Shown here: in pieces, positions 2,477-15,445 of the stretch
Position numbering within the stretch: the first letter of the stretch is position 1
Layout: each line of letters starts with the position of its first letter
Source: Azospirillum canadense
GTDB taxonomy: Bacteria > Pseudomonadota > Alphaproteobacteria > Azospirillales > Azospirillaceae
Direction of reading: 5' to 3'
Assembly (NCBI RefSeq): GCF_025961225.1
Contig: NZ_JAOQNG010000005.1
Coordinates: 186,001-250,000, forward strand
DNA: 64,000 nt
The notes under the pieces: model-generated
What the model saw: the letters and a program-made list of their open reading frames with translations, nothing else
Told to the model about the DNA's origin: nothing
Databases searched by the model: none
Position numbers and translations under genes: made by a program

Positions 2477-4489
2477 ATGACCTGCTGTGGGTTTATTGTC
2501 GATCGCGGCGTCGCGATGGCCGCCGGTGACGGCACTATCTTGATGATGGACGTGTACCGGCCCGCCGTGGCAGGCGTGCCACTCCCCGGCGCCTTTCCGG
2601 TGCTGCTGGAGCGCACCCCCTACGGCCGGGCGTCGCCGCGCGTTGCCGGTTTGGCGGAACGGGCGGCGGAGCGCGGCTACGTCTTCGTCGCCCAGGACGT
2701 TCGGGGACGCGGGGAGTCCGGGGGGCACTTCCACATGCTCACCAACACTCCGGACGAGGGCGCGGACGGCGCGGACACCGTGGCGTGGTTGCACCTCCAG
2801 CCCTGGTGCGATGGGCGGATCGGCACAGTGGGGGGCTCGTTCAGCGCCGCGAACCAGCAGGCCCTGGCGCTCCACCGCCCGCGCGGCCTGCGCGCGCAGG
2901 TGCTGCGCGACGCCGGCACCAACTACTACCGCCGCATGCTACGCACACATGGGGCGTTCAACGTCGGCATGGTTTTGCCCTGGGTGCTGAATCAGGCGCT
3001 CGACAGTCCCGAGGCGGCCACCGATCCGCACGTTGCGGCCGCGCTCGCCGAGATGCGCGGCAACCTGAGCGAGTGGATCGGGCGGCTTCCGCTCCGCCGG
3101 GGCGAGACGCCGCTGGCGCTCGTGCCCGCCTACGAGGATATCTATTTCACCATGCTGGAGACGTCGGATGACGTACCGTACTGGCATAACCCCACCGCGC
3201 GCCTGGAGGGGCGTTGGGACGAGTACCCGACCGACGTCGCCATCCTGCTCATTTCCGGCTGGTTTGCCCACCACGCCGCTGCCAACGTGGACAAGCTGCG
3301 CGAACTTGGGCACCGCTTGACGCGGCCCGTGCGCCTTGTCATCGGACCGTGGATCCACGGACCGGACATGATAGAGGCCACCCACGCCGGCGAAGCGGAT
3401 TTCGGGGTTGCTGCTGCGGATCAGGGACCGCTGCACGATCTGCGCCTCGACTGGTTCGACCGCTTCGTTCTCGACGTACCGGGACCAGCGGTGCCGCCGC
3501 TCACCTACTTCGTTATGGGGACCGGTGACGGTCACAAGACGCCCGAGGGCCGCGTATTTCATGGTGGCGAATGGCGCCACGCTGACGCTTGGCCACCAGC
3601 CGGTACCACACCCACCCCATTTTATCTTCATGATGGCGGGGTGCTCGCGAGCCATGCGCCAAAGAAGCACGCCGCGCAGGACACCTATGACTTCGATCCG
3701 GCCGATCCTTGCCCGGGCATCGGGGCCACTAACCTGCAGTCGACTGAGTTTCCGGAGTTCGTGCTTCCTGGGCCGCGCGACCAACGCTGCCGCTCAGGCT
3801 TCGCAGCGTGCCGCGGCAGCGACCGGCCGCTCGCGGAACGCCCGGATGTGCTCGTGTATCAGACGGAGCCGCTGGCGGAGGACACCGAGGTCACCGGTGA
3901 TCTTGAAGCCCGCCTATGGGTGGCATCGAGCGCACCCGACACGGATTTCATGGTGCGGCTTATCGACGTTTATCCGGATGGCGGAAGCGAGTTGCTGATT
4001 GCGGAGGGGGTGGTGCGGATGCGCTATCGCGGCGATCGGCCAACCGGTGCGCTGATTGTTCCCGGCAGGACCTATGCCATTGCCGTCGAACTAGGACCGA
4101 CTAGCAACGTCTTCAAGCGCGAGCACCGGATCCGCCTGGACATCACCAGCTCTAGCGTGCCGGAATACGACGTTAACCCGAACACGGGTGAGCCGCTGGG
4201 CCGACACACCCACATGCGTGTGGCCCGGCAGACCATCTGGCGGGATGCCTATCGCCCCTCACACTTACTAGTTCCCTTGGCTACTAGTTCCCTTGGCGAC
4301 GCTACGTCGTTGAGCCGTGTTTCAGACGGGAGGCCATCCAGGTCAAACAGGCCCTCAAACTTTGTTCAGGGCGACTATTCCGGGAACGGGTTTGCCGAAA
4401 CGCATTCAATGGTACGAAAAGCGATTAGAGTTCTACGTCAGCATCTGGAAGAACGTTCCGGGATAGGACGATTTGCTCGCCCGCTATGA
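2477..4489 (+). CDS. CocE/NonD family hydrolase with a frameshifted C-terminal tail
   Basis: This is an alpha/beta-hydrolase of the CocE/X-Pro dipeptidyl-peptidase family (esterases and acylases). Visible elements are an N-terminal DGT-MMDVYRP strand, a nucleophile elbow GTVGGSFSAANQ near residue 120, the GPWIHG histidine segment near residue 293 and the C-terminal jelly-roll domain (VTGDLEARLWVAS, EHRIRLDITSSS). The loop usually written GWxD reads GWFAHH here, so the catalytic Asp may be displaced or lost. A 16-bp tandem duplication at 4266-4297 shifts the frame after Ala602. With one copy the protein would end LATLRR at the TGA 4311-4313 (606 residues); the present tail of about 68 residues is non-native. 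It is probably the last gene of the DppBC-amidase operon. Confidence 0.85.
   Translation: MTCCGFIVDRGVAMAAGDGTILMMDVYRPAVAGVPLPGAFPVLLERTPYGRASPRVAGLAERAAERGYVFVAQDVRGRGESGGHFHMLTNTPDEGADGADTVAWLHLQPWCDGRIGTVGGSFSAANQQALALHRPRGLRAQVLRDAGTNYYRRMLRTHGAFNVGMVLPWVLNQALDSPEAATDPHVAAALAEMRGNLSEWIGRLPLRRGETPLALVPAYEDIYFTMLETSDDVPYWHNPTARLEGRWDEYPTDVAILLISGWFAHHAAANVDKLRELGHRLTRPVRLVIGPWIHGPDMIEATHAGEADFGVAAADQGPLHDLRLDWFDRFVLDVPGPAVPPLTYFVMGTGDGHKTPEGRVFHGGEWRHADAWPPAGTTPTPFYLHDGGVLASHAPKKHAAQDTYDFDPADPCPGIGATNLQSTEFPEFVLPGPRDQRCRSGFAACRGSDRPLAERPDVLVYQTEPLAEDTEVTGDLEARLWVASSAPDTDFMVRLIDVYPDGGSELLIAEGVVRMRYRGDRPTGALIVPGRTYAIAVELGPTSNVFKREHRIRLDITSSSVPEYDVNPNTGEPLGRHTHMRVARQTIWRDAYRPSHLLVPLATSSLGDATSLSRVSDGRPSRSNRPSNFVQGDYSGNGFAETHSMVRKAIRVLRQHLEERSGIGRFARPL
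4266..4297. repeat. 16-bp perfect tandem duplication in the CocE-type gene
   Basis: The unit TACTAGTTCCCTTGGC occurs twice in immediate tandem (4266-4281 and 4282-4297). Because 16 is not a multiple of three, the second unit shifts the reading frame and replaces a nearby natural stop with a longer tail. The pattern is typical of replication slippage or of an excised insertion. Confidence 0.95.
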
Positions 4490-4553
4490 CAAGGCAGTGA
4501 TGCAGGCCAGGACAGATGGCACGCTGCTGCGCATTGCCGCCAAGTACATCTGA
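4380..4553 (+). pseudogene. Remnant of a periplasmic solute-binding protein (family 3 type)
   Basis: In the frame ending at TGA 4551-4553 the sequence reads WYEKRLEFYVSIWKNVPG, an in-frame TAG (4464-4466), then DDLLARYDKAVMQAR and TDGTLLRIAAKYI. The last part resembles the C-terminus of amino-acid-type ABC solute-binding proteins (SBP_bac_3). There is no start codon in context and the frame holds a stop, so this is a decayed fragment. It overlaps the non-native tail of the CocE-type gene in another frame. Family assignment rests on the short C-terminal motif only. Confidence 0.5.
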
Positions 4554-4719
4554 TCGAATGCATCGGAGTTCCGATCCGGTGAACGCGACGGTAAACAGCG
4601 GGTGATCGATCCGGGGGACACACGCCGTTTCGGGCGAGATTGTCGCCCCATGCCGCTCGAGCGAACGCACAGTCATCGAGCGAGCGCAGTGTCAACGGTG
4701 CAAAGCACAATTTGTGCCG

Positions 4720-5099
4720 GAAGGCAGTGCTGATCGATGGCGCGCCTTATGCACGCGGGGCTTAGATCAGGAGCCTGAAAATGGATTGATGCCGCGCGCT
4801 GGTGCAACGTGCGCAACGATGGCCCGGGATCGGGAGCGGTCGAACGGAGCCATGCATCGAAGGGCAAGCGGAAGCCGAATTGACGTTAATTGCATCGGGG
4901 TTCGCCCGTATTGAAAACGTAATACTAACGCAAATTCAATGCTTTCCGGAGCTGCACCAATACGTGTCCATCATTCTCGAATCATATGCCGTCGCAGAAC
5001 TGGATTGGCGACGAGCTAATTTGAAGGAACTTGTAGCGTGCGTGCGTATGTCATCAACGTCCTGAGCGCGGGTGATCACCAATCACCCAGGAGGCAGCA
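4720..5099 (+). repeat. Conserved leader of pseudo-receiver module, copy A
   Basis: This roughly 380-bp stretch before the pseudo-receiver gene has a clear homologue, in inverted orientation, at 14129-14510. Shared landmarks in order are GATCAGGAGCCTGAAAATGG, GCGGAAGCCGAATTGACG followed by TTAATTGCATC, GCGTGCGTGCGTATGTCATC and the ribosome site CAGGAGGCAGCAATG. Reading frames in it are not preserved between copies, so it looks like a leader or promoter region rather than a gene. It holds no other coding sequence I can support; 4554-4719 appears empty. Confidence 0.7.
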
Positions 5100-5513
5100 A
5101 TGACCAGTCTTGCTGGGTCGACCGTGCTGATTGCGGAACCTTACGCGTCAGTCGCTTCTGGCCTTCGCTTGATCATCGAGCAATGGGGCGGATGCTGCCG
5201 GACGGTCCTGTCGGCAGGTGAGCTGCACGTCGCTCTGCAGTGCGCGTTGCCCGACGTGCTGCTGGTCAACATCGACCTGGTGGGGGGAAGCGAGGGCGTC
5301 GAAGCGCTGTCGCGCGCCTATTCAACGGCGGTTGTCGTTATGGCGGCACGCTTTCTGGGCAAAGATGAACGTGAGGCGGTGGCGTGCTTGGAAATGCCGT
5401 TCACCATTGCTGATCTGCAGCTCGCCATCAGGTCGGCGTCGGCCCGGTTATTGGGAGGAGCGGGAAGGTCGGTGCGCGGCTTGCCGGGCCGCGCGGCGGC
5501 TTGGGCCTTATGA
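5100..5513 (+). CDS. Stand-alone pseudo-receiver (degenerate response-regulator) protein, copy A
   Basis: This 137-residue cytosolic protein has the alpha/beta pattern of a response-regulator receiver domain (VLIAEPY beta-1, PDVLLVNIDL beta-3, AVVVMAA beta-4, CLEMPF beta-5) and no output domain. All signature residues are replaced: the acidic pair is Glu13-Pro14, the phosphate-accepting Asp is Asn57 (an Asp sits two residues later), the Thr/Ser switch is Ala82 and the conserved Lys is Met99. It should therefore not be phosphorylated in the usual way and may act by protein contacts. A strong Shine-Dalgarno (AGGAGG) precedes the ATG. A second, inverted copy with the same substitutions lies at 13715-14128. 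Confidence 0.75.
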   Translation: MTSLAGSTVLIAEPYASVASGLRLIIEQWGGCCRTVLSAGELHVALQCALPDVLLVNIDLVGGSEGVEALSRAYSTAVVVMAARFLGKDEREAVACLEMPFTIADLQLAIRSASARLLGGAGRSVRGLPGRAAAWAL

Positions 5514-6027
5514 GAATCAGCCTTTATCATCGGTCCAGTGTTTGGCTGTCGTCCAAATGCCATATGGGGACGGCCCTCTGCTTGCAAGCTGAAGAGGTTG
5601 AAGATCGTGGTCGGATCGCTTGCGCTCATATGTCCGGCCTGTTCGTGCGCCCGCACATGAGCGCTGCACAAGATGGTTTCCGCGACATGGGTCCCAAACA
5701 CCGATGCGACCACTGGGGGCCACTGGCATCTACGGGTTTGCTCACGTCTCGGATCGATCGATTACGCCATCTCCTCGTCACCCGGCAAGGTCCAACTCCG
5801 CCCGGCGTCGTCCACGGCTAAGCCGGGATCGTGTTGGGGGGATCCGATGCGGTCGTGGTCAGCGACACCAAGCCTGGCATCCGATGGTGGAACGAGCCGC
5901 CTGAAGACCGGCCCGTGTCAAGTCCGCAGCCGCCGCAGGCGATGGCCCGAGAGGGCCAGGCTTGAGGAGGAGCGGCCGAAGGCGAATCCTCGCTCGCGGA
6001 TGCCTGATGGGCTGAAGACGGCTCCGT
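5514..6027. other. No gene recognised
   Basis: About 500 bp between the pseudo-receiver gene and the IS110 remnant. Short frames exist on both strands but none shows a recognisable domain, a convincing ribosome site or conservation. The first 30 bp still resemble the flank downstream of the second pseudo-receiver copy (ATCGGTCCA-TG-TTG). The right part is probably the non-coding 3' flank of the decayed IS110 element. Confidence 0.5.
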
Positions 6028-6130
6028 TCAGGCATGTGCATGGTGCGCCTCATAGGTGGTCTGGCGCACCAGCACCGCCCAGGCGATCCGGGCCAGCTTG
6101 TTGGCGAGCGCCACGACCACGGTGTTGACT
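6028..6130 (-). pseudogene. IS110-family transposase, C-terminal remnant
   Basis: The minus strand reads VNTVVVALANKLARIAW-AVLVRQTTYEAHHAHA before a stop at 6028-6030. The NKLARIAWAVL segment is characteristic of the C-terminus of IS110/IS1111 transposases. Nothing upstream of it belongs to the same family, so only the last 34 codons survive. It abuts a decayed IS5-type element. Confidence 0.7.
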
Positions 6131-6190
6131 TGGGCGCTGCTCTGGTGCACGGAGGCGGGAGGGCGGAGTGCTGCTCTGTGTGCGTGATCG

Positions 6191-7146
6191 TCAGGCGATG
6201 CGAACGGATTCCGGGCGTCCGAGGTCAAGCATTCGGTTGCGAAGGTTGACGGCAATCTGGGTTTCGATCCGCTGTGTCGGTCGGGTGCGGGAGTTCAAGG
6301 TGTCGCCGATGACTCGTTTCTATCCGCTCATCGCCCCCTCGGCCCCGGCCCTCGCGTTATCTCCCGAACTTTTAGCCACCTCATCCGGCCCTGCTCGGCG
6401 ATAAGCTGGATATGGCGGGCGCGTTGCGTCGGGCGGAGGGGCGGAGTACGGCCGTGGACCGCGGCGGGACGACCACCACGGCTGAGGCATGGCGTTCGGT
6501 CACGGTCTCGTCGACGCGGTCCTGGTCGTCGGCACCGTCGGCAATGACCGCAGCGATCGGCTCGTCGACTTGGTCAAGCAAGGAGCCGAGTTCGGCGGCA
6601 TCGTCACCCTCCTTGGCGCTCAGGGCCGATGCCACGATCGTGTCGGTCTCGGCATCGACGCCCAGGTGCAGCGTCCGCCAAGCCCGACGCCGCTGCGTCC
6701 CATGCTTTTCGACCAGCCATTCGCCCGCCCCGCTCAGCTTCACACCGGCGCTGTCGACCAGCAAGCATACCGGGCCGTTCACCGTCCGCGCCGCCGGCGC
6801 TTTCACCAGCGTTCCGGCCCGCCGGCTCAGCGTGGAGTGATTCGGCACCGGCAGGTCCCGTTCCCTCAGCCCGCGCAGCGAGCGGACCAGCCCTTCGGTC
6901 TGCCGCAGCGGTTGGCGAAACACCGCCCTCAGGATGAGAGCGGCTTGATCGCGAGGTCCGAGGAGCGCGCCTGGCCCCCCGGCGTGGACCGCGGCGGTGC
7001 CCGCCACGCCGCAATGGCCTCTTGCGAAAACCGGATGGTCCAGGGGCCGCGCTGACGCAGCCCGGCTTCCTAGGCCGACCAGTTCGTCACCCTGTGGCGG
7101 GTTCTCGGAATCCGGTGGCGACGGTCGGCATTGTGCTTGTGCGGCA
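6191..7146 (-). pseudogene. IS5-family (IS903-like) transposase, degenerate
   Basis: The minus strand encodes most of an IS903-type DDE transposase in shifted frames. It runs from the start MPHKHNADRRHRIPRTRH and EAGLRQRG, through LLVDSAGVKLSGAGEW (first Asp) and WRTLHLGVDAETD, to the C-terminal KRVIGDTLNSRTRPTQ and RMLDLGRPESVRIA stop at 6191-6193. There are at least one early in-frame TAG, frameshifts near 6425 and 6385, and a TAG in place of the Tyr before KRVIGD. It is dead. Related fragments occur at 9123, 19125, 47484 and 54546, so this family was once active here. Confidence 0.85.
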
Positions 7147-7283
7147 TACTCGGGCGGATCGGTCAGGAAAGGGGGCACGCCTCCTACCCGACCACGTCCA
7201 TGCTGACAACCACCCCATCCCTGCACCAAAGCAGCGGATTGGCCTAGTCATCTTGGCGCATCGAACGAGGAAAGGGCGAACCG

Positions 7284-8117
7284 GTGGAGCGTACGATTGT
7301 CAATAGGGAAGCGGTCGGCGCTACGGCCCACATCACCCAGCGCCGCAAACTGCTCATGGCCCAGATCCTGATCGAGCATCCGACCCTGATCGTGGTTCGC
7401 CAGGGCCGGAAGCTGCTCCGCGGTATCGGCCAGGAATGGCATGTCGAGCCGGGGATGGCGGTGGCCCTGGCCGAGGATCAGAGGTTCGACGTGGTGAACA
7501 CGCCGGATGCCGAGACCGGCGTCTATGAAGCCGACTGGCTGGCCTGCGCGCCAGAGATCGTCACGCGCTTTGCCACAGGGGGCGTTACCGGCAAGCCCAT
7601 TTGCGACGTCCATGTTCTGCCCAGCGCGACCAGGGCATTCAGCGATGCCTTTATGCGTGCCCGCCAAGGCATCTTTGACGAGGACGAGGTGCCCAGGGCG
7701 GCCGCCATCGCGAGGATCGTGGAGATGCTGGCATGGCTGGACCGGAGCGGCGGGTATTTCCGATGCGAAGGCAATGCATCGGTCTCGCGCCGGGTCCGGC
7801 TCACGTTGTCGGAGAATCTTGGCACGAAATGGACGGCGCCCGGCGTTGCGGAACAACTCGGCATCAGTGAAGCCTCCCTTCGCCGGCGCCTTGCCGAGGA
7901 AGGAACATCCTTCAGCAGGCTGCTGATCGATACGCGGATGTCGCGTGCGCTGACTCTTCTTCAGGTCACCGACTGGCCGATCATCCAGATCGCCTTCGAA
8001 ACGGGCTATGAGAGTCCGTCTCGCTTTTCGGTCCGTTTTCGGGAGCGCTTTGGCTACTGCCCCTCGGCGGTTCGGACGCCGGACGGCGTGAATGCGGGAT
8101 CCGCTGATCTGCTCTGA
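7284..8117 (+). CDS. AraC-family transcriptional regulator
   Basis: This 277-residue DNA-binding regulator has an N-terminal cupin-like sensing domain (about residues 15-130, including VVRQGRKLLRGIGQEW) and a C-terminal AraC double helix-turn-helix (about residues 170-265). The first helix-turn-helix is PGVAEQLGISEASLRRRL and the second is IIQIAFETGYESPSRFSVRFRERFG. The start is a GTG at 7284 preceded by GAGGAAAGGG. It is transcribed toward the PEBP gene 250 bp downstream and may control it, but that is inference. The ligand is unknown. Confidence 0.92.
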   Translation: MERTIVNREAVGATAHITQRRKLLMAQILIEHPTLIVVRQGRKLLRGIGQEWHVEPGMAVALAEDQRFDVVNTPDAETGVYEADWLACAPEIVTRFATGGVTGKPICDVHVLPSATRAFSDAFMRARQGIFDEDEVPRAAAIARIVEMLAWLDRSGGYFRCEGNASVSRRVRLTLSENLGTKWTAPGVAEQLGISEASLRRRLAEEGTSFSRLLIDTRMSRALTLLQVTDWPIIQIAFETGYESPSRFSVRFRERFGYCPSAVRTPDGVNAGSADLL

Positions 8118-8367
8118 ACCTGAGCGCGATCCACGGTTCAACCGGAAAATCAAAAGCTGAGCATTGCGGATGCCATGGGCCGCTATCGCGGTCGACGGCG
8201 ATGCCATGGCACCGAAGGGTTTCACACAGGGAAATTCAGCCGAGGCGGCGTGGTGGCGGACCGTGGGCGGTGATCGGATCAGCACATTCATTGAGCGGCC
8301 GCGCACAGCAAGAGCTCAACCACAATGTTAGGCTCATATCGGTGATCATCTATGGAGCGTACCGATA

Positions 8368-8934
8368 ATGCTAAACAAAATAGCGTTTACCTCCGCACTG
8401 GCTACCGTTGCTGTGATGTCTGGTGCAGCTTCGGCGCAAAACTTCAGTCTTTCCATCCCTGATCTGAAGGCTGGAAAATTCACCAATGAGCAGTTTCTCA
8501 GTGAAACTTATGGCTTTGGTTGCTCGGGTGACAATGCATCTCCACGTCTGACCTGGAGCGGTGCTCCCGCAGGAACCCGGAGCTTCGTGCTGACCGTGTA
8601 TGACAAGGACGCACCGACCGGCTTCGGCTGGGTACACTGGGTCGTGGCGAACATACCGGGCAACGCCATCGAGATCGCCCGCGGGATCACTTCCGACGGT
8701 GTCGGACTGCCCGCCGGTTCTCTTCAGACACGCACCGATTTCGGCGTTCCGGGGTATGGCGGACCCTGCCCACCGCAGGGTTCCACTCACAACTACGTTA
8801 TCACCTTGACGGCCCTGAAGGTCGATAAACTGCCAGACGCCGTGACTCAGAATGCGCCCCCTGCTCTCGTCGGCTTCTTCACCAAGGCCAATTCGCTCGG
8901 AGAAGCAACGCTCGTCGTGAACCAAGGGCGCTAA
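8368..8934 (+). CDS. YbhB/YbcL-type phosphatidylethanolamine-binding-like protein (PEBP), exported
   Basis: This 188-residue protein has a Sec signal peptide (residues 1-23, cleavage after GAASA) and a full PEBP fold. The motifs are FGCSGDNASPRLTWSGAP, the ligand-site strand DKDAPTGFGWVHWVV and the loop GYGGPCPPQGSTHNYVITL. Bacterial members of this family are small periplasmic proteins of poorly known role, possibly binding phospholipid head groups or small anions. The start is ATG with an upstream GGAGCG. The 250-bp gap before it (8118-8367) holds no gene and probably contains its promoter. Confidence 0.93.
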   Translation: MLNKIAFTSALATVAVMSGAASAQNFSLSIPDLKAGKFTNEQFLSETYGFGCSGDNASPRLTWSGAPAGTRSFVLTVYDKDAPTGFGWVHWVVANIPGNAIEIARGITSDGVGLPAGSLQTRTDFGVPGYGGPCPPQGSTHNYVITLTALKVDKLPDAVTQNAPPALVGFFTKANSLGEATLVVNQGR

Positions 8935-9122
8935 GCCAGCGTGAATGGGATGGACGCTCCCCGTTTCTGGCGTGGTGACGCCATCTGAGGGGGAAGTCCC
9001 TCTCATCATGGAGACGGTGCGATGTGTGCGACGGTCACCGACATTGGCGCATAAATCGTCGGAAGCTGGCGGTGTTATGGTTTTGGCGGGTATAGAGGCG
9101 TCCCGCTGAAGCCGAGAGCCCG

Positions 9123-9345
9123 ATGCCCGACAAGGCCAACGAGAGCCGCCGCCATAAGATCCCGCGCGCCCGCGACCGGGTCGAGAACTGGTCGGCCTAT
9201 GATGCGGCGCTGCGTCGGCGTGGCGATCTGACCGTCTGGGTGACGCCGGAAGCGATCGCCGCCTGGACGCCGCCCGCCACGGGACGGCGTGGCCGGCCAG
9301 CGCGCTACGCCGACATCGCGATCGAAGCCGGGTTAGCGCTGTGGA
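9123..9345 (+). pseudogene. IS5-family (IS903-like) transposase, N-terminal fragment
   Basis: The plus strand reads the standard N-terminus of an IS903-type transposase: MPDKANESRRHKIPRARD, WSAYDAALRRRGDLTVWVTP and ARYADIAIEAGLALW. Similarity stops near 9345 and the frame ends at 9380. The catalytic domain is missing. The breakpoint joins the region leading to a serine recombinase fragment. Confidence 0.85.
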
Positions 9346-9676
9346 CAATCTGGCAAAATCCCTTTTTGAGCTATCGGTGAAATTCCAGCGTCACGCGTCG
9401 AAACGGATGCGTGATGGATACCGGGGAGCGCCGTTGATGGCGCAGCAGCCAAGCTGCGACGGTGCAAGGGCCGGAGGAGGCGCCAATGGAACGGCGCAAC
9501 TCGGGTCGTCCGGACAGGGAGGTTCGCGTGAGCTTTGAAACCTCCCGGGTCGGCGAACAATGTTTGAGCGATCGCTACGAGCACCTGCTTCCCTGGCGGT
9601 GTCCCTATCCCGAGCGGGCCCAACAGCCGCCAGCCATGCCGGTTGGTCCCGCCTCTGCTCTGCCGGAGAGAGAGCC

Positions 9677-10093
9677 ATGCAGCCTCTTCGTGTTGCCCTC
9701 GACGCCCGTGTCTCGTCCGGCCAGCAAGTGACGGATGCCACGATCGCCAGCCAGATCGCGGCCCTTGACGCGCGTCTCGCACAGGATGGTGTTCGCGTCC
9801 TATCGGAGCATCGGTTCATTGATGACCGCGACAGTGGCAACACCGTGCTGCGCCCCGCGCTGGAGCGCCTCCGCGATGCGGTGGCCACCGGCTTGGTGGA
9901 CCGTCTTTATGTTCATTCGCCCGATCGCCTGGCCCGGCGCTATGCCTACCAGGTTGTTCTGATGGATGAAGTTCGGCGGGCTGGAACGGAGGTGGTCTTT
10001 CTCAATCGCGCGATCGGCGTGTCGGCGGACGACGATCTGCTGCGGCAGGGTCCGGGCATCGTGGCCGAGTATGAGCGGGCCAAGATCCTGGAG
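9677..10093 (+). pseudogene. Serine recombinase (resolvase), N-terminal fragment
   Basis: From an ATG at 9677 the frame encodes a resolvase catalytic domain: RVALDARVSSGQQVTDATIA with the nucleophile Ser at SS, FIDDRDSGNTVLRPALERL, DRLYVHSPDRLARRYAYQ and the dimer helix VAEYERAKILE. It is cut at residue 139 by a 151-bp element with IS6-type ends, and no recombinase sequence is recognisable beyond it. The DNA-binding and zinc-ribbon parts are therefore absent. A frame of 39 codons precedes the ATG without recognisable similarity. Confidence 0.85.
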
Positions 10094-10244
10094 GGCACTG
10101 TCAACTTGGCTTCCGTAGCGAGTCATTCGCACAATGCTCATGCGCGAACACGTCCTGTGGGCGCATCAATCACGGCCGTAAGAGACACCACTTCGTCTCA
10201 TTATTGCGTTGGCAAGCCATAACCGAGACCAAGTTGACAGTGCC
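10094..10244. mobile_element. 151-bp MITE-like element with perfect 16-bp IS6-type terminal repeats
   Basis: GGCACTGTCAACTTGG at 10094-10109 is the exact inverse of CCAAGTTGACAGTGCC at 10229-10244. These ends match those of the IS6 element at 54641-60026 (GGCACCGTCAA and TTGACGGTGCC). The 119-bp interior has no gene. It interrupts the resolvase fragment. I see no clear 8-bp target duplication, so it may be an internal-deletion derivative of an IS6 element with an altered flank. Confidence 0.75.
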
Positions 10245-10338
10245 TCCGCGGCCGCACCCTGTTCCACTGGTGGCCGGCGTTCGCCTGAAAACTTCGGCAA
10301 ATCCCATCAGCAGAAGCATTCTCATGCCGTCGGTATGA

Positions 10339-11326
10339 GAGCCTGTTGAGAAGAAGGCCGAGAAGATTCAGTGCAAATGCGATGGCGACCGCGCGAGTCG
10401 CTTCACGAGAATGTGGCTCATCGCCATGTAAATGAATGTTTCTTCCGACTCTGGAAGGCGTTCGTAATCTTTTGACAAGCGGCGATGTCGGCCAAGCCAT
10501 GCGAATGTCCTTTCCGCGACCCAGCGGCGCGGTAGAACATGAAACCCCTTGGGAATTTCTGGAGGTTCCTGGCCAGGGGCGAGCCAAAAGCCCTGAACAC
10601 CGGTCCACCAGTGCTTGACGACTTCGATGGTCCAGCCGAGCCGATCTTTGGCCCAGGTCTTCAGCCCTTGATAATGCGTGTCCGCCCAGACGAGCTGGAT
10701 CGCGGGAAACCACAGGTGCAAGCCTGCCAGCAGGAGCATGCCCCCGGCCTTGTCATGAAGATCGGCCGGATGCACCCGCACCTTCAGGAGATCGCCTTCC
10801 GTATCGACTAAGGTCTGCCGCTTTCGCCCGCTCACCTTCTTGCCGCCATCATAGCCGCGCGGCCCACCGGATTCGGTTGTTTTCACCGATTGACTGTCGA
10901 TCGCCGCGGCGGTTGGTTGAGCTTTGCGGCCACGCCGGGTTCGATACGGCTCGCGCAGCGCCGCATTGACCTGTTCCCACTTCCCGCTTTTGCGCCAACG
11001 GCGGAAGTGATCGTACACGTCGGTCCAGGGTGGCAGATCGTGGGGCATCATGCGCCAAGCGATGCCGCCACGCAGGACATACAAGCATCCGTCAAGGATG
11101 CGCCTCAGGTCGTGTTTGCGTTGTGCTCCGCGATGCTCACTCTTCGTGAAAAGTTTCGAAATGACCGCCCACTCGTCATCGGTCAAATCGGACGGATACC
11201 GGTTCGGGGACATGCGATCACCTCTCAAGGCGACGACATTGCATGCTGAATCAATGGCTCCATTGGGGCGTGCGTTGCAAATCAGCATTGATGCCGTATT
11301 TCATCGGTCTTCATCTCAACAGCCTC
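10339..11326 (-). mobile_element. IS5-family insertion sequence (IS427-like), apparently intact
   Basis: A 988-bp element has imperfect terminal repeats GAGCCTGTTGAGAAGAAGG (10339) and, read on the minus strand from 11326, GAGGCTGTTGAGATGAAG. It is flanked by direct TGA triplets (10336-10338 and 11327-11329), as expected for the TNA target of the IS427 group. It contains one transposase gene on the minus strand. Confidence 0.88.
10368..11213 (-). CDS. IS5-family transposase
   Basis: This 281-residue DDE transposase begins MSPNRYPSDLTDDEWAVI, the usual IS5 start, with GAGGTGA as ribosome site. An upstream in-frame ATG at 11288 lacks one and is rejected. Domains: DUF4096-type N-terminal (LTDDEWAVISKLF, WRMMPHDLPPW) and catalytic DDE with AAIDSQSVKT, LVWADTHYQG and WVAERTFAWLGRHRRLSKDYE. 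All three acidic residues are present and the gene is intact, so the element could still be mobile. Confidence 0.92.
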   Translation of the reverse strand: MSPNRYPSDLTDDEWAVISKLFTKSEHRGAQRKHDLRRILDGCLYVLRGGIAWRMMPHDLPPWTDVYDHFRRWRKSGKWEQVNAALREPYRTRRGRKAQPTAAAIDSQSVKTTESGGPRGYDGGKKVSGRKRQTLVDTEGDLLKVRVHPADLHDKAGGMLLLAGLHLWFPAIQLVWADTHYQGLKTWAKDRLGWTIEVVKHWWTGVQGFWLAPGQEPPEIPKGFHVLPRRWVAERTFAWLGRHRRLSKDYERLPESEETFIYMAMSHILVKRLARSPSHLH

Positions 11327-11335
11327 TGAGAAGGC

Positions 11336-11656
11336 TCACGACGCATGCCCCAACAGTTTGCGCGCCAGAAGTTTTGTTTCGCTCCGTGCTATTTGTAACA
11401 GCGAAGACACAGTTGTCAGAACCACCTCGCAATCCGGGCGCATGGGGTCGAGCGATTGCATGATCCGCCCCATCGATTGCCAAAAACTGATCAGCCTCGG
11501 GATGTCCGGATGCGCATGCCTGGCGCCGAGACACTGCAGGTCGGCTATCGCATTGGCGACCACTCTCTGAAACTCCGTCTGGGCTGCGGCATACTCGGCG
11601 CGGTGAGCGGCCTCGACCGCCATGCGACGCCCCTTGATGCGTGGGTGCATGTCCAT
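11336..11656 (-). CDS. Hypothetical protein
   Basis: A 106-residue, probably helical cytosolic protein starting MDMHPRIKGRRMAVEAAH and ending ARKLLGHAS. The ATG at 11656 is preceded by CAGGGAC. It has no signal peptide or membrane helix and I do not recognise the family. It is convergent to nothing obvious and lies 3' of the chemoreceptor gene on the same strand, 150 bp away, so it may be cotranscribed with it. The neighbouring IS5 inserted just past its stop codon and left it intact. Confidence 0.5.
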   Translation of the reverse strand: MDMHPRIKGRRMAVEAAHRAEYAAAQTEFQRVVANAIADLQCLGARHAHPDIPRLISFWQSMGRIMQSLDPMRPDCEVVLTTVSSLLQIARSETKLLARKLLGHAS

Positions 11657-11808
11657 CACTGTCCCTGACCAAACACAAGCAACGCAACCCGCACAGTCGC
11701 TGACGCTTGCGCGTCCCACGTTGTGCCCTTGGCAGGCGGCGCGCGAAAACGCCTCCCTGGCCGGTTGGGCGGAACGCCGCCTTGGCCGGGCACGAAGGGA
11801 GGCGCCTC

Positions 11809-13494
11809 TCAGGCGCGTTTGACATCCTCAAGGAAGGTCTCGACGTCCACGCGCAGGCGCGCCGACTGGTCGGCCAGGTGAGCCGCGACGTCGTGCACCG
11901 CGCCCGCCGCCTGACCGGTCTGCCCGGCGGCGCGGGTCACGCCGGCGATGGTGCTGCTCACCGCCAGAGTGCCGTGGGCGGCCTCCTGCACGCTGCGGCT
12001 GATCTCCTGCGTCGCCGCGAACTGCTCCTCCACCGCCGTGGCGATGGCCGCGGAGATCTGGCTGATCTCGCCGATCACCCGGCTGATCTCCGCGATCGCC
12101 CCCACCGCCTCGCGCGTGGCGCCCTGGATCGCGCCGATCTGCTCGGTGATGTCCTCCGTCGCCTTGGCCGTCTGGGTGGCCAGGTGCTTGACCTCGCTCG
12201 CCACCACCGCGAAGCCCTTGCCGGCTGCACCGGCGCGCGCCGCCTCGATCGTGGCGTTCAGCGCCAGCAGGTTGGTCTGGCCGGCGATGGTGGTGATCAG
12301 GTCGACCACCCGACCGATGCGCTGCGCGCCCTCGGCCAGGCCGGACACCACGGTGCTCGCCCGGCCGGCGCCGGCCACCGCGCGCTCGGCCACCTGGGAG
12401 GACTGGGTCACCTGGCGGCCGATCTCGCCGATCGAGGCGGCGAGCTCGTCGGCCGCCGCCGCGACGGTCTGCACGTTGGCGCTCGCCTGCTCGGAGGCAT
12501 ACGCGACGGTGCCGCTCAGCTGGGTGCCGGTGTCCGCCGTCCGGGTCAGCGTGCCGGCGGCCTGCTGCATCTGGGTGGCCGAGCCGGCCAGGCTCTGCAC
12601 CACGCCGGTGATCGCGCCCTCGAAGCCGCGCATGAGCTCGTCCAGGCGCTCGACACGGCGGGCCTTGGCCGCCTCCTCCGCGCGCCGGGCGGCGGCGAGG
12701 CGCTCGGCCTCAAGGGCGTTGCGCTGGAAGACCGCGACCGCCTCGGCCATGGCGCCGATCTCGTCGCCGCGGCCGACGCCGGGGATCGCCCCCGTCCTGT
12801 CGCCGCTGGCCAGCCGGGTCATGCAGCCGGTCAGCGCGATGATGCCGCCGCTGATCGTGCGGCGGAGCAGCAGCCCCATCAGACCGGCCACCGCGAGGGT
12901 CAGCAGGCCGCCGACGAGGATCGTGGAGTAGGCGGTGTTGAAGGCCGCCTCCTCGTCGGCGCGGCGCGCGCCGAGCAGCCCGCGCTCCACGGCGTCGATC
13001 TCAGCGACCAGCTTGCGGATGGCGTCCATGTGCGTCTTGCTGACGCCGGAGGCGACCAGGCGGGCGGCCGCCTCGCGGCCGCCCGGTTGCCGCATCAGGG
13101 CGATCTCCGCCTCGGCGATTTCGGTGCGCCAGCGCTCGGCGGCGGCCTTGAGCCGGTCGAGGCGGGCCTGCTGCCCGGGGTTGTCGCCGGTCAGCCGCTT
13201 GAGGGTGGCGAAGGCGGTCTCGAACGCGGCGAGACCGCCCGTGTAGGGCTCGAGAAAGGCGGCGTCGGCGGTGAGCAGGAAGCCGCGCAGGCCGGTCTCC
13301 TGATCGACCATGGCGGCCATCAGGCGGCTGGCGTCCTCCAGCACCTCATAGCTGTGCGTGGTCCAGCCGTTGCTGGTCTGGAGGAAGCTCAGGGTGCGGA
13401 AACTGATAACGCTGACGCCCGCCGCGACCAGGATGATGGCGGCAAACGCGATCGTCGACTTCTGCGCAATGCGCAGCCTCATGAACCAAGTCAT
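11809..13494 (-). CDS. Methyl-accepting chemotaxis protein with CHASE3 sensor
   Basis: This inner-membrane chemoreceptor of about 561 residues has a first membrane helix (about 13-33), a periplasmic CHASE3 domain (about 35-185, with [11 protein letters not shown]), a second helix (about 187-210), a HAMP linker and a long cytoplasmic signalling coiled coil. The coil contains the kinase-control tip [17 protein letters not shown] and [15 protein letters not shown]. It would modulate CheA and flagellar behaviour; the ligand is unknown. The start is uncertain: a GTG at 13506 adds four residues, and the ATG at 13494 has AGGGAC very close to it. No C-terminal pentapeptide for CheR/CheB docking is visible, and no che genes are nearby, as for many orphan receptors. 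Confidence 0.93.
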
Positions 13495-13714
13495 GTCCCT
13501 GGACACCTAAAATCTGTCGCGTGAGCTGGGCCAGCATGGACCCAACACTTCCGCCGGGTATGCGCGGCCGGTGTGCTGCGTGAAGGCCCGCTGTCGGTTG
13601 TAAGGGCCGGTTGGGTCGCGGCGGCACCCGCCCCCGCTTGCGATGCGATTGCGGCGATCCCGGTGTTCCGTCTGGAACGCGGTCAAGCATTGGACCGATC
13701 AGGACGGCCAGTCC

Positions 13715-14128
13715 TCATAACGCCCAAGCCGCCTCGCGGTCCGGCACACCGCGCAGCGATCTTGCCGTCCTTCCCCATAACCGGGCCGACATCGACGCGA
13801 TCGCGAGCTGCAGGTCCGCTATGGTGAACGGCATTTCCAAGCAGGTTACCGTGTCACATTCGTTCGAGTGCAGAAAACGCGCCGCCATAGCAACGACCAC
13901 AGCGGAACAGGCCCGCGACAGCGCTTCGATGCCCTCGCGTCCCCCGGCCAGGTCGATGTTGACCAGCAGCACGTCGGGCAACGTGCTCTGCAGAGCCGCG
14001 TGCAGCTCGTCGGACGACAGCACTGTCCGGCAGGATCCGCCCCATTGCTCGATGATCATGCGAAGGCCAGAAGCGACTGACGCGTAAGGTTCCGCAATCA
14101 GCACGGTCGTCCCAGCAAGATTGGTCAT
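13715..14128 (-). CDS. Stand-alone pseudo-receiver protein, copy B
   Basis: This 137-residue paralogue of the protein at 5100-5513 has the same length, the same start context (GGAGGCAGCAATG) and the same C-terminal AAWAL. It conserves the unusual replacements: Glu13-Pro14 for the acidic pair, Asn57 for the phosphate-accepting Asp, Ala82 for the switch Thr and Met99 for the Lys. The retained fold with identical missing residues argues that the phosphorylation-independent form is selected rather than decayed. It is in inverted orientation to copy A, about 8.2 kb away. There is no output domain, so it may act as a single-domain adaptor. Longer upstream reading is open but lacks conserved protein similarity. 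Confidence 0.75.
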   Translation of the reverse strand: MTNLAGTTVLIAEPYASVASGLRMIIEQWGGSCRTVLSSDELHAALQSTLPDVLLVNIDLAGGREGIEALSRACSAVVVAMAARFLHSNECDTVTCLEMPFTIADLQLAIASMSARLWGRTARSLRGVPDREAAWAL

Positions 14129-14510
14129 TGCTGCCTCCTGGATGATCGGTGACCACCCGCGCTCAGGATGTTGATGACATACGCACGCACGCCACAAGCT
14201 CCTCCAAGTTAGATCGGCACCGATCCAGCTCTGCTGGCGCCAATCGATTGGAGAATGATGTGTGAGCATTGCCGCTGTTTCGACAAGCATCGTATTTGCG
14301 CTGGATTTCCGCTTTGAATACAGGTGATCCCAGATGCAATTAACGTCAATTCGGCTTCCGCCTTCCCTTTGATGCTTAGCTCCGTTAATCCCTTTCCGGT
14401 CCCGGACGGTCAATGCGCCCGTTGCACCCGCACGCGGAATCAGTCCATTTTCAGGCTCCTGATCTGAGCCCCGCGTGCTGTGGCATAAGCCTCGCCATCG
14501 ATCAGCGCCG
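14129..14510 (-). repeat. Conserved leader of pseudo-receiver module, copy B
   Basis: Reverse-complement homologue of 4720-5099, by eye about three quarters identical, with blocks of near identity at the GATCAGGAGCCTGAAAATGG and GGCGGAAGCCGAATTGACG positions and around the start codon. An open frame runs through this copy into the gene but not through copy A, so it is treated as a long leader. 13510-13714, downstream of the gene, shows no coding sequence. Confidence 0.7.
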
Positions 14511-14614
14511 CTTTCCGGCGCCGAATGGACTGTTACCCCGGATTGCGCGTGTCCTGGCCACCACCATTGGCGCTGAACCGACATCGAATCGTCATAGCCC
14601 TCGCTTCGCGCACA

Positions 14615-15445
14615 TTACGAATCCGCGGCGTCCCAATCCGGTGCGAATGGCGGTCGAACGAAACGCTGGTTCTTTGGCAAGGCGGCAATCGCGGCGCGAT
14701 CGTCGTCGCCGAGCCGGACTCCGAGCGCCTCGAGATTAGCCCTCTGGCTTTCACGACGGGCGGCCTTCGGGATCACGATCACATCCGGCTGATTGAGCAG
14801 CCAAGCGACAGCTATCTGGGCGGCACTGCAGCCATGCGCACGGCCAAGGGCGGCAAGCGTCGGATCGCTCGCCGCCCGGCCCTGGGCGAGCGGCGCGTAG
14901 GCGGTCAGCGGTATCCCCTTGCTACGAAGATAGGCCAGCATCGGCCCCTGCGACAGGAACGGGTGGTATTCGAGCTGGACATTGGCGATCGGCGCGCCGA
15001 TCGCCTCCACCGCATGGCGGATCATCGGAAGGTTGAAGTTGCAAACCCCAATGGCGCGTGTCAAACCGCAGTCCCGCAACGCCGTCAACGCGTCCAGCGT
15101 CGCCCCCATGTCCATTTCCTTCGATGGCCAGTGGATCATGTAGAGATCGACATGGTCGAGCCCCAGCTTGCGCAGGCTGCTGTCGAAGGCACGGCGGAGC
15201 GTATCCGGCGCGAGTTGGTCGTGCCAGACCTTGGTGGTGACGAACAGCTCGCTCCGGTCCACCCCGGATGCCGCGATGGCGGCGCCGACTGCGGCTTCGT
15301 TCTCATACATCGCCGCGGTGTCGATGTGGCGGTAGCCGAGCGCGAGCGCGCTCTCGACAACCGGCTGGGCGTCGGCGCCCGGCATGCGGAACGTGCCGAA
15401 GCCGAGGCGAGGTATTGCGACTCCCTGCGTGGTGATGGTTTCCAT
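14615..15445 (-). CDS. Aldo/keto reductase
   Basis: This 276-residue NADPH-dependent oxidoreductase of the aldo/keto reductase family resembles 2,5-diketo-D-gluconate reductases. The catalytic tetrad is visible: Asp42 and Tyr47 (HIDTAAMYENE), Lys72 (VTTKVWH) and His105 (MIHWPSKE). The cofactor loop IPKAARRESQRANLEAL is present near the C-terminus. It reduces aldehydes or ketones in the cytosol; the substrate cannot be stated. It is the last gene of a minus-strand cluster with an NmrA-like protein and an exported serine hydrolase, divergent from a LysR regulator. The dkgB name would be possible but is not proven. Confidence 0.93.
   Translation of the reverse strand: METITTQGVAIPRLGFGTFRMPGADAQPVVESALALGYRHIDTAAMYENEAAVGAAIAASGVDRSELFVTTKVWHDQLAPDTLRRAFDSSLRKLGLDHVDLYMIHWPSKEMDMGATLDALTALRDCGLTRAIGVCNFNLPMIRHAVEAIGAPIANVQLEYHPFLSQGPMLAYLRSKGIPLTAYAPLAQGRAASDPTLAALGRAHGCSAAQIAVAWLLNQPDVIVIPKAARRESQRANLEALGVRLGDDDRAAIAALPKNQRFVRPPFAPDWDAADS

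Follow-up and report, generated by a model that had tools for sequence, protein, structure and literature searches.

The stretch of Azospirillum canadense DNA analyzed here (the window, 64,000 nucleotides, positions 186001-250000 of the 499-kb contig C5) carries two copies of a gene for a pseudo-receiver (PsR), a stand-alone protein of 137 residues that has the predicted fold of a receiver and has lost most of the residues used in phosphorylation. Four close copies of the gene, called A to D, are present in the genome. In B, C and D, PsR is followed in the same direction, and with nearly equal spacing, by a chemoreceptor (methyl-accepting chemotaxis protein, MCP) with a CHASE3 domain and then by a small orphan protein, here called X. 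We tentatively favor, at a little under even confidence, the reading that PsR works independently of phosphorylation and heads a PsR-MCP-X cassette, in which PsR and X would be accessory to the signaling complex of the receptor. What the analysis shows is the predicted fold, the residue losses and their conservation, the order and number of the genes and the mosaic of their sequences; co-expression of the genes, the partner of PsR and the direction of its effect are what we infer.

The pseudo-receiver and its family

A search of the A. canadense genome (9.73 Mb in 10 contigs) gave 13 matches at E<=0.01. Four are the close PsR copies, all on C5, A being 76-88% identical to each of B, C and D. 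The nine further matches are all weak, at E 2.6e-6 or worse, and those inspected are receivers. The four copies are:

Window 5100-5513 (C5 191100), + strand: PsR copy A, 137 residues, AGGAGG upstream, no chemoreceptor behind
Window 13715-14128 (C5 199718), - strand: PsR copy B, 137 residues, AGGAGG upstream
C5 154283, outside the window, + strand: PsR copy C, close copy from the own-genome search
C5 288909, outside the window, + strand: PsR copy D, close copy from the own-genome search

The original prediction, made from the letters of the window, had described A and B as two inverted open reading frames of 137 residues, and this is confirmed. The arms of the inverted repeat are 79-86% identical, pairing 4716-4752 with 14483-14519 (86%), 4751-4983 with 14246-14478 (79%) and 4994-5575 with 13653-14234 (83%), and A and B align by blastn with 81.8% identity over 836 bp (printed E, 0.0). 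The homology of copy A to the other copies ends at ~5544-5575, about 30-60 bp past the PsR stop codon. Copies C and D were added by the genome-wide search that the prediction had proposed.

Copies A and B have the predicted substitutions, E13-P14, N57, A82 and M99. Pro14, Asn57, Ala82 and Met99 are common to A-D, so that four of the five active-site positions are lost, but position 13 is still acidic and the claim that every phosphorylation residue is lacking goes one residue too far. Glu13 is not a loss because the canonical receivers of relatives carry Glu there and because passages of a review of pseudo-receivers (PMC12632262) count any acidic residue at the first acidic position as canonical.

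The family has nine members. In their alignment, the first acidic position is Glu in eight and Asp in one, the second is Pro in five and Ala in four, the Asp position is always Asn, the Thr/Ser position is Ala in eight and Ser in one (genome G020), and the Lys position is always Met. Asn57 and the motif LEMPF, in which Met99 replaces the Lys, are invariant in 9/9. The set that characterizes CheY and canonical single-domain response regulators (Asp, acidic pair, Thr/Ser and Lys) is not found in the aligned PsRs. A receiver without the Asp and the Lys cannot run the usual phosphotransfer.

Structure prediction supports the receiver fold. The AlphaFold2 model of PsR B, calculated with a five-sequence alignment, has a mean pLDDT of 80.6, a pTM of 0.75 and the strands and helices in receiver order, while residues 118-137 mostly have a pLDDT <50. 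The best Foldseek match in the PDB has an E of 1.2e-6, there are 331 matches at E<=0.001, and nearly all of those listed are titled receivers or response regulators. VIA-align of the model gave Z 17.3 with a root mean square deviation (rmsd) of 1.9 over 121 aligned residues. The model has no helix 4 between strands 4 and 5, a weak point of a model made from a shallow alignment. Receivers usually meet their partners through the α4-β5-α5 face, according to passages of PMC12632262, and thus the altered α4 of the model would fit a non-standard output. The Pfam Response_reg model (PF00072) matches A at E 0.17 (12.5 bits) and B at E 0.001 (19.6 bits). These scores are below the gathering cut-off of 30.2, which places PsR outside a PF00072-based set of pseudo-receivers by that criterion.

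PsRs were found in 6/45 Azospirillum genomes, A. canadense included. Some match at E<=1e-5 occurs in 25/45, mostly to ordinary receivers as judged by weak scores, from which the PsRs were separated by an E below 1e-18 together with the alignment. A search of 82 genomes of the order with the family alignment (up to 49 candidates scored per genome) gave as other matches at E<=1e-10 eight canonical receivers with the acidic pair, Asp, Ser and Lys. Only the A. canadense genome matched at E<=1e-15 among 385 sampled genomes of the class (up to 10 candidates scored per genome). A pattern scan of species-representative contigs gave three loci, all from Azospirillum and taken to be those of G021, G020 and G033; an initial scan of genome contigs with a single PsR protein gave no relative. 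The genus of the window was assigned as Azospirillum, and the related sequences in named records are from Azospirillum.

The closest canonical relatives of PsR in the genus are the terminal receivers of a hybrid kinase. In A. canadense this kinase has 906 residues with PAS, HisKA, HATPase and Response_reg domains by Pfam, and its C-terminal receiver matches PsR at E 8e-9, with 37% over about residues 3-75. The best sequence-model matches of PsR B are NF009971 (PRK13435, single-domain; E 1.4e-7) and NF041832 (NahK/ErcS kinase; E 2e-5) in NCBIfam, both far below the cut-offs and, unlike PsR, the canonical receivers looked at keep the Asp and the Lys. FastTree places the nine PsRs in one group with a local support of 0.98 when 11 other receivers and six distinct hybrid-kinase receivers are included. 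Hybrid-kinase and single-domain receivers are both candidates for their canonical sister group, the trees favoring neither.

None of the nine PsR genes has an internal stop. All were read from the ATG that aligns, though in some members the frame is open upstream of it, reaching a total of 299 codons in B and as many as 493 in G020, and a longer product is conceivable there; read in this way they appear to be separate genes, and not fragments of a longer gene, an outcome that the original prediction had allowed for. The ratio of non-synonymous to synonymous divergence (dN/dS) is 0.30-0.50 in 6/6 paralogue pairs of A-D, rough values owing to gene conversion. Synonymous change exceeds non-synonymous change in both pairs tested (A-D, p 5e-4; B-C, p 4e-4; approximate Fisher test on fractional counts). 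The PsRs of G018, G019 and G033 are too similar to add weight, with <=4 synonymous and <=5 non-synonymous changes. The invariant Asn57 and LEMPF, the intact reading frames and the dN/dS values together argue that PsR has kept a function and does not look decayed.

Pseudo-receivers are a known class that makes up about 6% of bacterial receiver domains in a direct analysis described in passages of PMC12632262. PsR is similar to these atypical response regulators in having the receiver fold without the catalytic residues. It differs from those reviewed in having Asn at the Asp position and Met at the Lys position, the common replacements in the passages being Glu and Arg with Ala common at the Thr position, and in being a single-domain protein, accompanied in A. 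canadense by a chemoreceptor and an orphan protein. The terms 'chemoreceptor', 'single domain' and 'stand-alone' have no whole-word match in the main text of that review. The Cle effectors of cyclic di-GMP, which are linked to motility, also consist of a CheY-like single receiver and a short basic C-terminal extension; PsR was not assigned to them, as their tandem arginine-rich motif [Y/F]XGP[D/E][R/K]R is absent from the PsR tail when read by eye. CheV, another receiver-bearing protein, works with particular chemoreceptors, but its receiver is described as phosphorylatable in passages of PMC12691637, and Pfam finds no match to the CheW domain that is a criterion for CheV in the 137 residues of PsR at E<=1. 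Stand-alone receivers are over-represented in Azospirillum, with a mean of 32 genes, in passages of a two-component survey (PMC4618731) that do not discuss dead receivers. No description of a PsR-chemoreceptor-X arrangement was found in titles and abstract starts of the open-access literature among the matches listed. PsR appears to be a branch, seen only in Azospirillum within the searches made, in which the Asn/Met replacement is fixed and the setting is unusual.

The chemoreceptor and protein X

The chemoreceptor belongs to the module because it lies behind PsR in 3/4 copies. The two genes that follow PsR in copy B are:

11809-13506, - strand: CHASE3-HAMP-MCPsignal chemoreceptor, 565 residues, GTG start, in-frame ATG at 13494
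11336-11656, - strand: protein X, 106 residues from the start common to its four copies

The original prediction had modules A and B flanking 8 kb of mixed sequence that includes a chemoreceptor. Mixed genes are indeed there, but the chemoreceptor is part of a module: the 8 kb contains the receptor and X of copy B, plus unrelated genes. The CHASE3 (E 2e-44) and MCPsignal (E 6.9e-31) matches of the receptor are above the Pfam cut-offs, and HAMP scores 21 bits against a cut-off of 25; with its signaling, sensor and HAMP domains the protein is classed as a methyl-accepting chemotaxis protein. The domains were assigned by Pfam for B and C and by similarity for D. The B receptor is 98.9% identical to that of C and 89.7% identical to that of D. 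In copy D, X is followed by a second chemoreceptor of 667 residues with a different sensor region (L015:10992-12995), giving two receptor genes in a row.

Protein X has no match in Pfam or NCBIfam. Its single-sequence AlphaFold2 model is a three-helix bundle with a pLDDT of 80.1. There is no PDB match at E<=0.001, and the VIA Z scores of up to 11.8 (rmsd 2.1, 93 aligned) are in the range common for helical bundles; the search for an identity by fold returned generic helical bundles only. X was not found in the 44 other genomes of the genus (E<=1e-4), in plasmid records (E<=1e-3) or, with up to 12 candidates scored per genome, in the other 384 sampled genomes of the class (E<=1e-5). In A. canadense it occurs four times, behind the three module receptors and once on contig C7. 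The C7 homologue, 111 residues long and 37% identical, also lies behind a CHASE3 receptor, a fourth one (L083:8500-10752; about 1208.5-1210.8 kb). MCP-X is therefore a recurring pair, and PsR looks like an addition to a pair that can stand by itself.

The copies are mosaics. B and C are ~99% identical through the whole receptor gene, with a synonymous divergence (dS) of 0.02, whereas dS is 0.27 in PsR and 0.20 in X. Roughly 800 nt in the central part of the D receptor gene are 96-100% identical to B and C (whole receptor genes: window 11809-13506; L014:8906-10603; L015:8534-10231); there the second membrane helix and HAMP are identical in the protein and the next 124 residues are 99-100% identical. 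The ends of the D receptor, its PsR and its X differ from B and C by about 10-25% or more. The PsRs of A and D are 96.5% identical in the last 198 nt and 82% in the first 135 nt. Gene conversion between the copies is the best account of this mosaic, and the mid-receptor tract is likely to be recent.

The settings of PsR in the other genomes are different. In G021 the gene is near amidohydrolase (by Pfam) and TRAP-transporter-like (by eye) genes, and in G020 it is beside other genes. In the A. brasilense-type genomes G018, G019 and G033 it lies between LysR and SnoaL-like genes on one strand (L054:8968-11161, L055:8637-10833 and L056:8435-10631; Pfam run on G033, with the same layout in the others). 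LysR-PsR-SnoaL may be a regulatory trio, in this case without the CHASE3 chemoreceptor nearby. The gene upstream of PsR shares its strand in A-D, G021 and G018/G019/G033 but is on the opposite one in G020, as given by a rough caller of open reading frames; these are too few for the orientation to have a meaning.

The leader, the hairpin and the surrounding genes

Upstream of PsR lies a leader that the original prediction had put at ~380 bp and read as a hint of regulatory RNA or protein sites. The leader is real, with ~385 bp shared by A and B, and its length common to A, B and C is about 385-414 bp. Only its last 56 bp are retained in D. The leader and the hairpin within it are positioned as follows:

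4686-5099, + strand: leader of copy A, common to C from 4686 and to B from 4716, last 56 bp only with D
14129-14519, - strand: leader of copy B, from blastn and repeat alignment
5070-5088, + strand: possible hairpin of copy A, 19 nt, directly 5' of the AGGAGG ribosome-binding site (RBS) at 5089-5094
14140-14158, - strand: the same hairpin in copy B, upstream of the RBS at 14134-14139

Blocks of the leader had been said to be more conserved than much of the coding sequence. This is true of some blocks: at a size of 40 columns the invariant fraction is 57-85% in the leader and 55-93% in the coding sequence, and the last leader block, up to the start codon, has 93%. Overall, however, 74.7% of leader positions are invariant among A, B and C, compared with 78.8% in the coding sequence and 71.5% at third codon positions. 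The Jukes-Cantor divergence of the leader (0.165-0.219) is modestly below the dS of PsR in the same three pairs (0.27-0.33), indicating no more than a mild constraint. Gaps of 1, 4 and 6 nt between A, B and C are unlike a reading frame, and the leader was rejected as coding sequence.

The proposed RNA or long protein site is not supported. There are no Rfam matches at the gathering score in window 4400-14800, and folding gives no consistent excess of structure, with z-scores of -0.13 for A, 0.26 for C and -1.73 for B, the last being at most a hint as 5/100 shuffles are as good. A DNA search with the leader in the 45 genomes of the genus (up to 15 candidates scored each) found no leader other than those of the four copies; two matches of 35 bp (G065, G014) are inside a predicted coding gene at a different locus and look like chance. 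That the leader might be the end of a known transposon was also considered, and it has no match in 72,556 plasmid records.

The sole leader element common to all four copies is the hairpin, which has a 7-bp stem and a 5-nt loop and ends right before the AGGAGG. All 21/21 cells are paired in its three distinct sequences, compared with 29-57% when the partner is slid. Two pairs vary, both by a one-sided change that keeps the pairing; the covariation check that had been suggested for the aligned leaders thus found no two-sided change in any hairpin pair, and a control by shuffling is powerless with so few distinct sequences. A different hairpin of 6 bp stands directly before the RBS, in the same place, in G020 (L053, - strand, some 10-30 nt before the ATG at 10114). 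There is a weaker one in G021 and none at that place in the G018/G033 type. The hairpin may have an effect on translation.

The unrelated genes between A and B include an AraC-type regulator, a homologue of phosphatidylethanolamine-binding protein, and the following:

6381-7229: open reading frame of a DDE transposase
9560-10222: piece of a serine recombinase, perhaps truncated, with an N-terminal CcrB/XisF/IS607-like match at E 7e-8 or weaker, below the cut-offs
10368-11288: IS5 transposase, near the recombinase piece

At 9.73 Mb the genome is larger than all 44 other genomes of the genus listed (5.5-8.2 Mb).

Possible role of the pseudo-receiver

Several observations weigh against a cassette in which PsR serves its receptor. 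The gaps of copy B are 208 nt between PsR and MCP and 152 nt between MCP and X, and the latter has a terminator-like pattern at 11700-11684. It is one of four patterns in a scan of 11250-14700 (1.6 expected), the other three overlapping one another inside PsR B; a scan of 4450-5800 gave none. A scan for sigma-70-like promoters in the same two intervals found no site near either PsR. The set of losses is not identical throughout the family, four positions being lost in 8/9 PsRs and three in G020, which retains the Ser, and the dN/dS values suffer from gene conversion. A-D have a C-terminal tail, R..RG...R.AAWAL, that the five other PsRs lack, a contrast confounded by descent because A-D are paralogues that exchange sequence. 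Furthermore, none of the five PsRs from other genomes has a match to the chemoreceptor (tblastn E<=1e-5) in the surrounding 19-20 kb fetched, and no PsR lies in the 17 kb fetched for the MCP-X pair of C7. PsR therefore does not need this chemoreceptor, and the link is so far specific to the A. canadense genome. It is these last two observations that hold our confidence below even. They also suit a PsR with a general regulatory role, independent of phosphorylation and outside chemotaxis, that was joined to MCP-X by a rearranging replicon, as do the metabolic and regulator gene settings in the other genomes and the insertion sequence and recombinase genes of the region. This explanation is possible but doubtful, because the PsR-MCP-X order is kept in three copies whose PsRs differ by a dS of 0.27-0.49; the arrangement is therefore not newborn and has been kept.

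PsR could instead be a by-product or a pseudogene in decay, such as the severed receiver of a hybrid kinase, now drifting without function. The nearest canonical sequences do include the receiver of the 906-residue PAS hybrid kinase, the NahK/ErcS model matches B at E 2e-5, the family is patchy (6/45 genomes) and copy A has no receptor. A drifting gene agrees poorly with nine frames free of stops, with the invariant Asn57 and LEMPF and with dN/dS <1, and decay is improbable. An even less probable explanation is that the leader acts in cis as an RNA (riboswitch, attenuator or small RNA) that controls the module. The ~385-414 bp common to A, B and C change slightly more slowly than synonymous sites, the z-score of B is -1.73 and the possible hairpin, paired in 21/21 cells, abuts the RBS in 4/4 copies; but Rfam has no match, A and C fold no better than expected (z -0.13 and 0.26), D has no leader upstream of -56, and the hairpin has no double-sided change and a powerless shuffle control. 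It is barely credible that the inverted copies, of about 800-860 bp each and near transposases, form the two arms of a mobile element. The right one opens a longer module, whose MCP and X would then fall within the element; around C and D, the 18 kb fetched contain only one PsR each; and the leader is absent from the plasmid collection. Of the original interpretation, the pseudo-receivers are supported, the leader as RNA or long site is not, and the chemoreceptor is part of a module and not mere flanked content.

If PsR heads a cassette accessory to the receptor, as we prefer, the switch of the receiver would be replaced by a conserved set in which the first acid is kept and is followed by Pro or Ala, Asn, Ala or Ser, and Met. 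Such a PsR would not be regulated by Asp phosphorylation and would therefore act through a fixed surface that binds a partner, its activity being set by the amount made. The cassette would be complete in B, C and D, with PsR alone in A. PsR would most likely occupy a CheY/CheA-type interaction surface without taking phosphate, biasing the output or the membership of the array. The basic tail ending in AAWAL would be the best candidate for a receptor-specific contact, and the hairpin adjacent to the RBS may set the dose of PsR.

A more detailed proposal, unlikely as it stands, is that PsR and X form a receptor-specific control pair that is free of phosphate. PsR would sit at the CheA/CheY-type interface of its own receptor complex, where the Asn/Met pocket or the tail would read a ligand, X or the state of the cell, and a dead response regulator would serve as a local adaptor in place of phosphotransfer. 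Gene conversion would homogenize the receptor cores, and divergence of PsR, the sensor end and X would leave each copy with partners of its own.

A. canadense has a small stand-alone dead receiver with an invariant Asn/Met pocket and a possible receptor partner adjoining it in three copies. The natural PsRs without a receptor offer a comparison, and a question that is usually hard to address becomes directly testable in a plant-associated genus.

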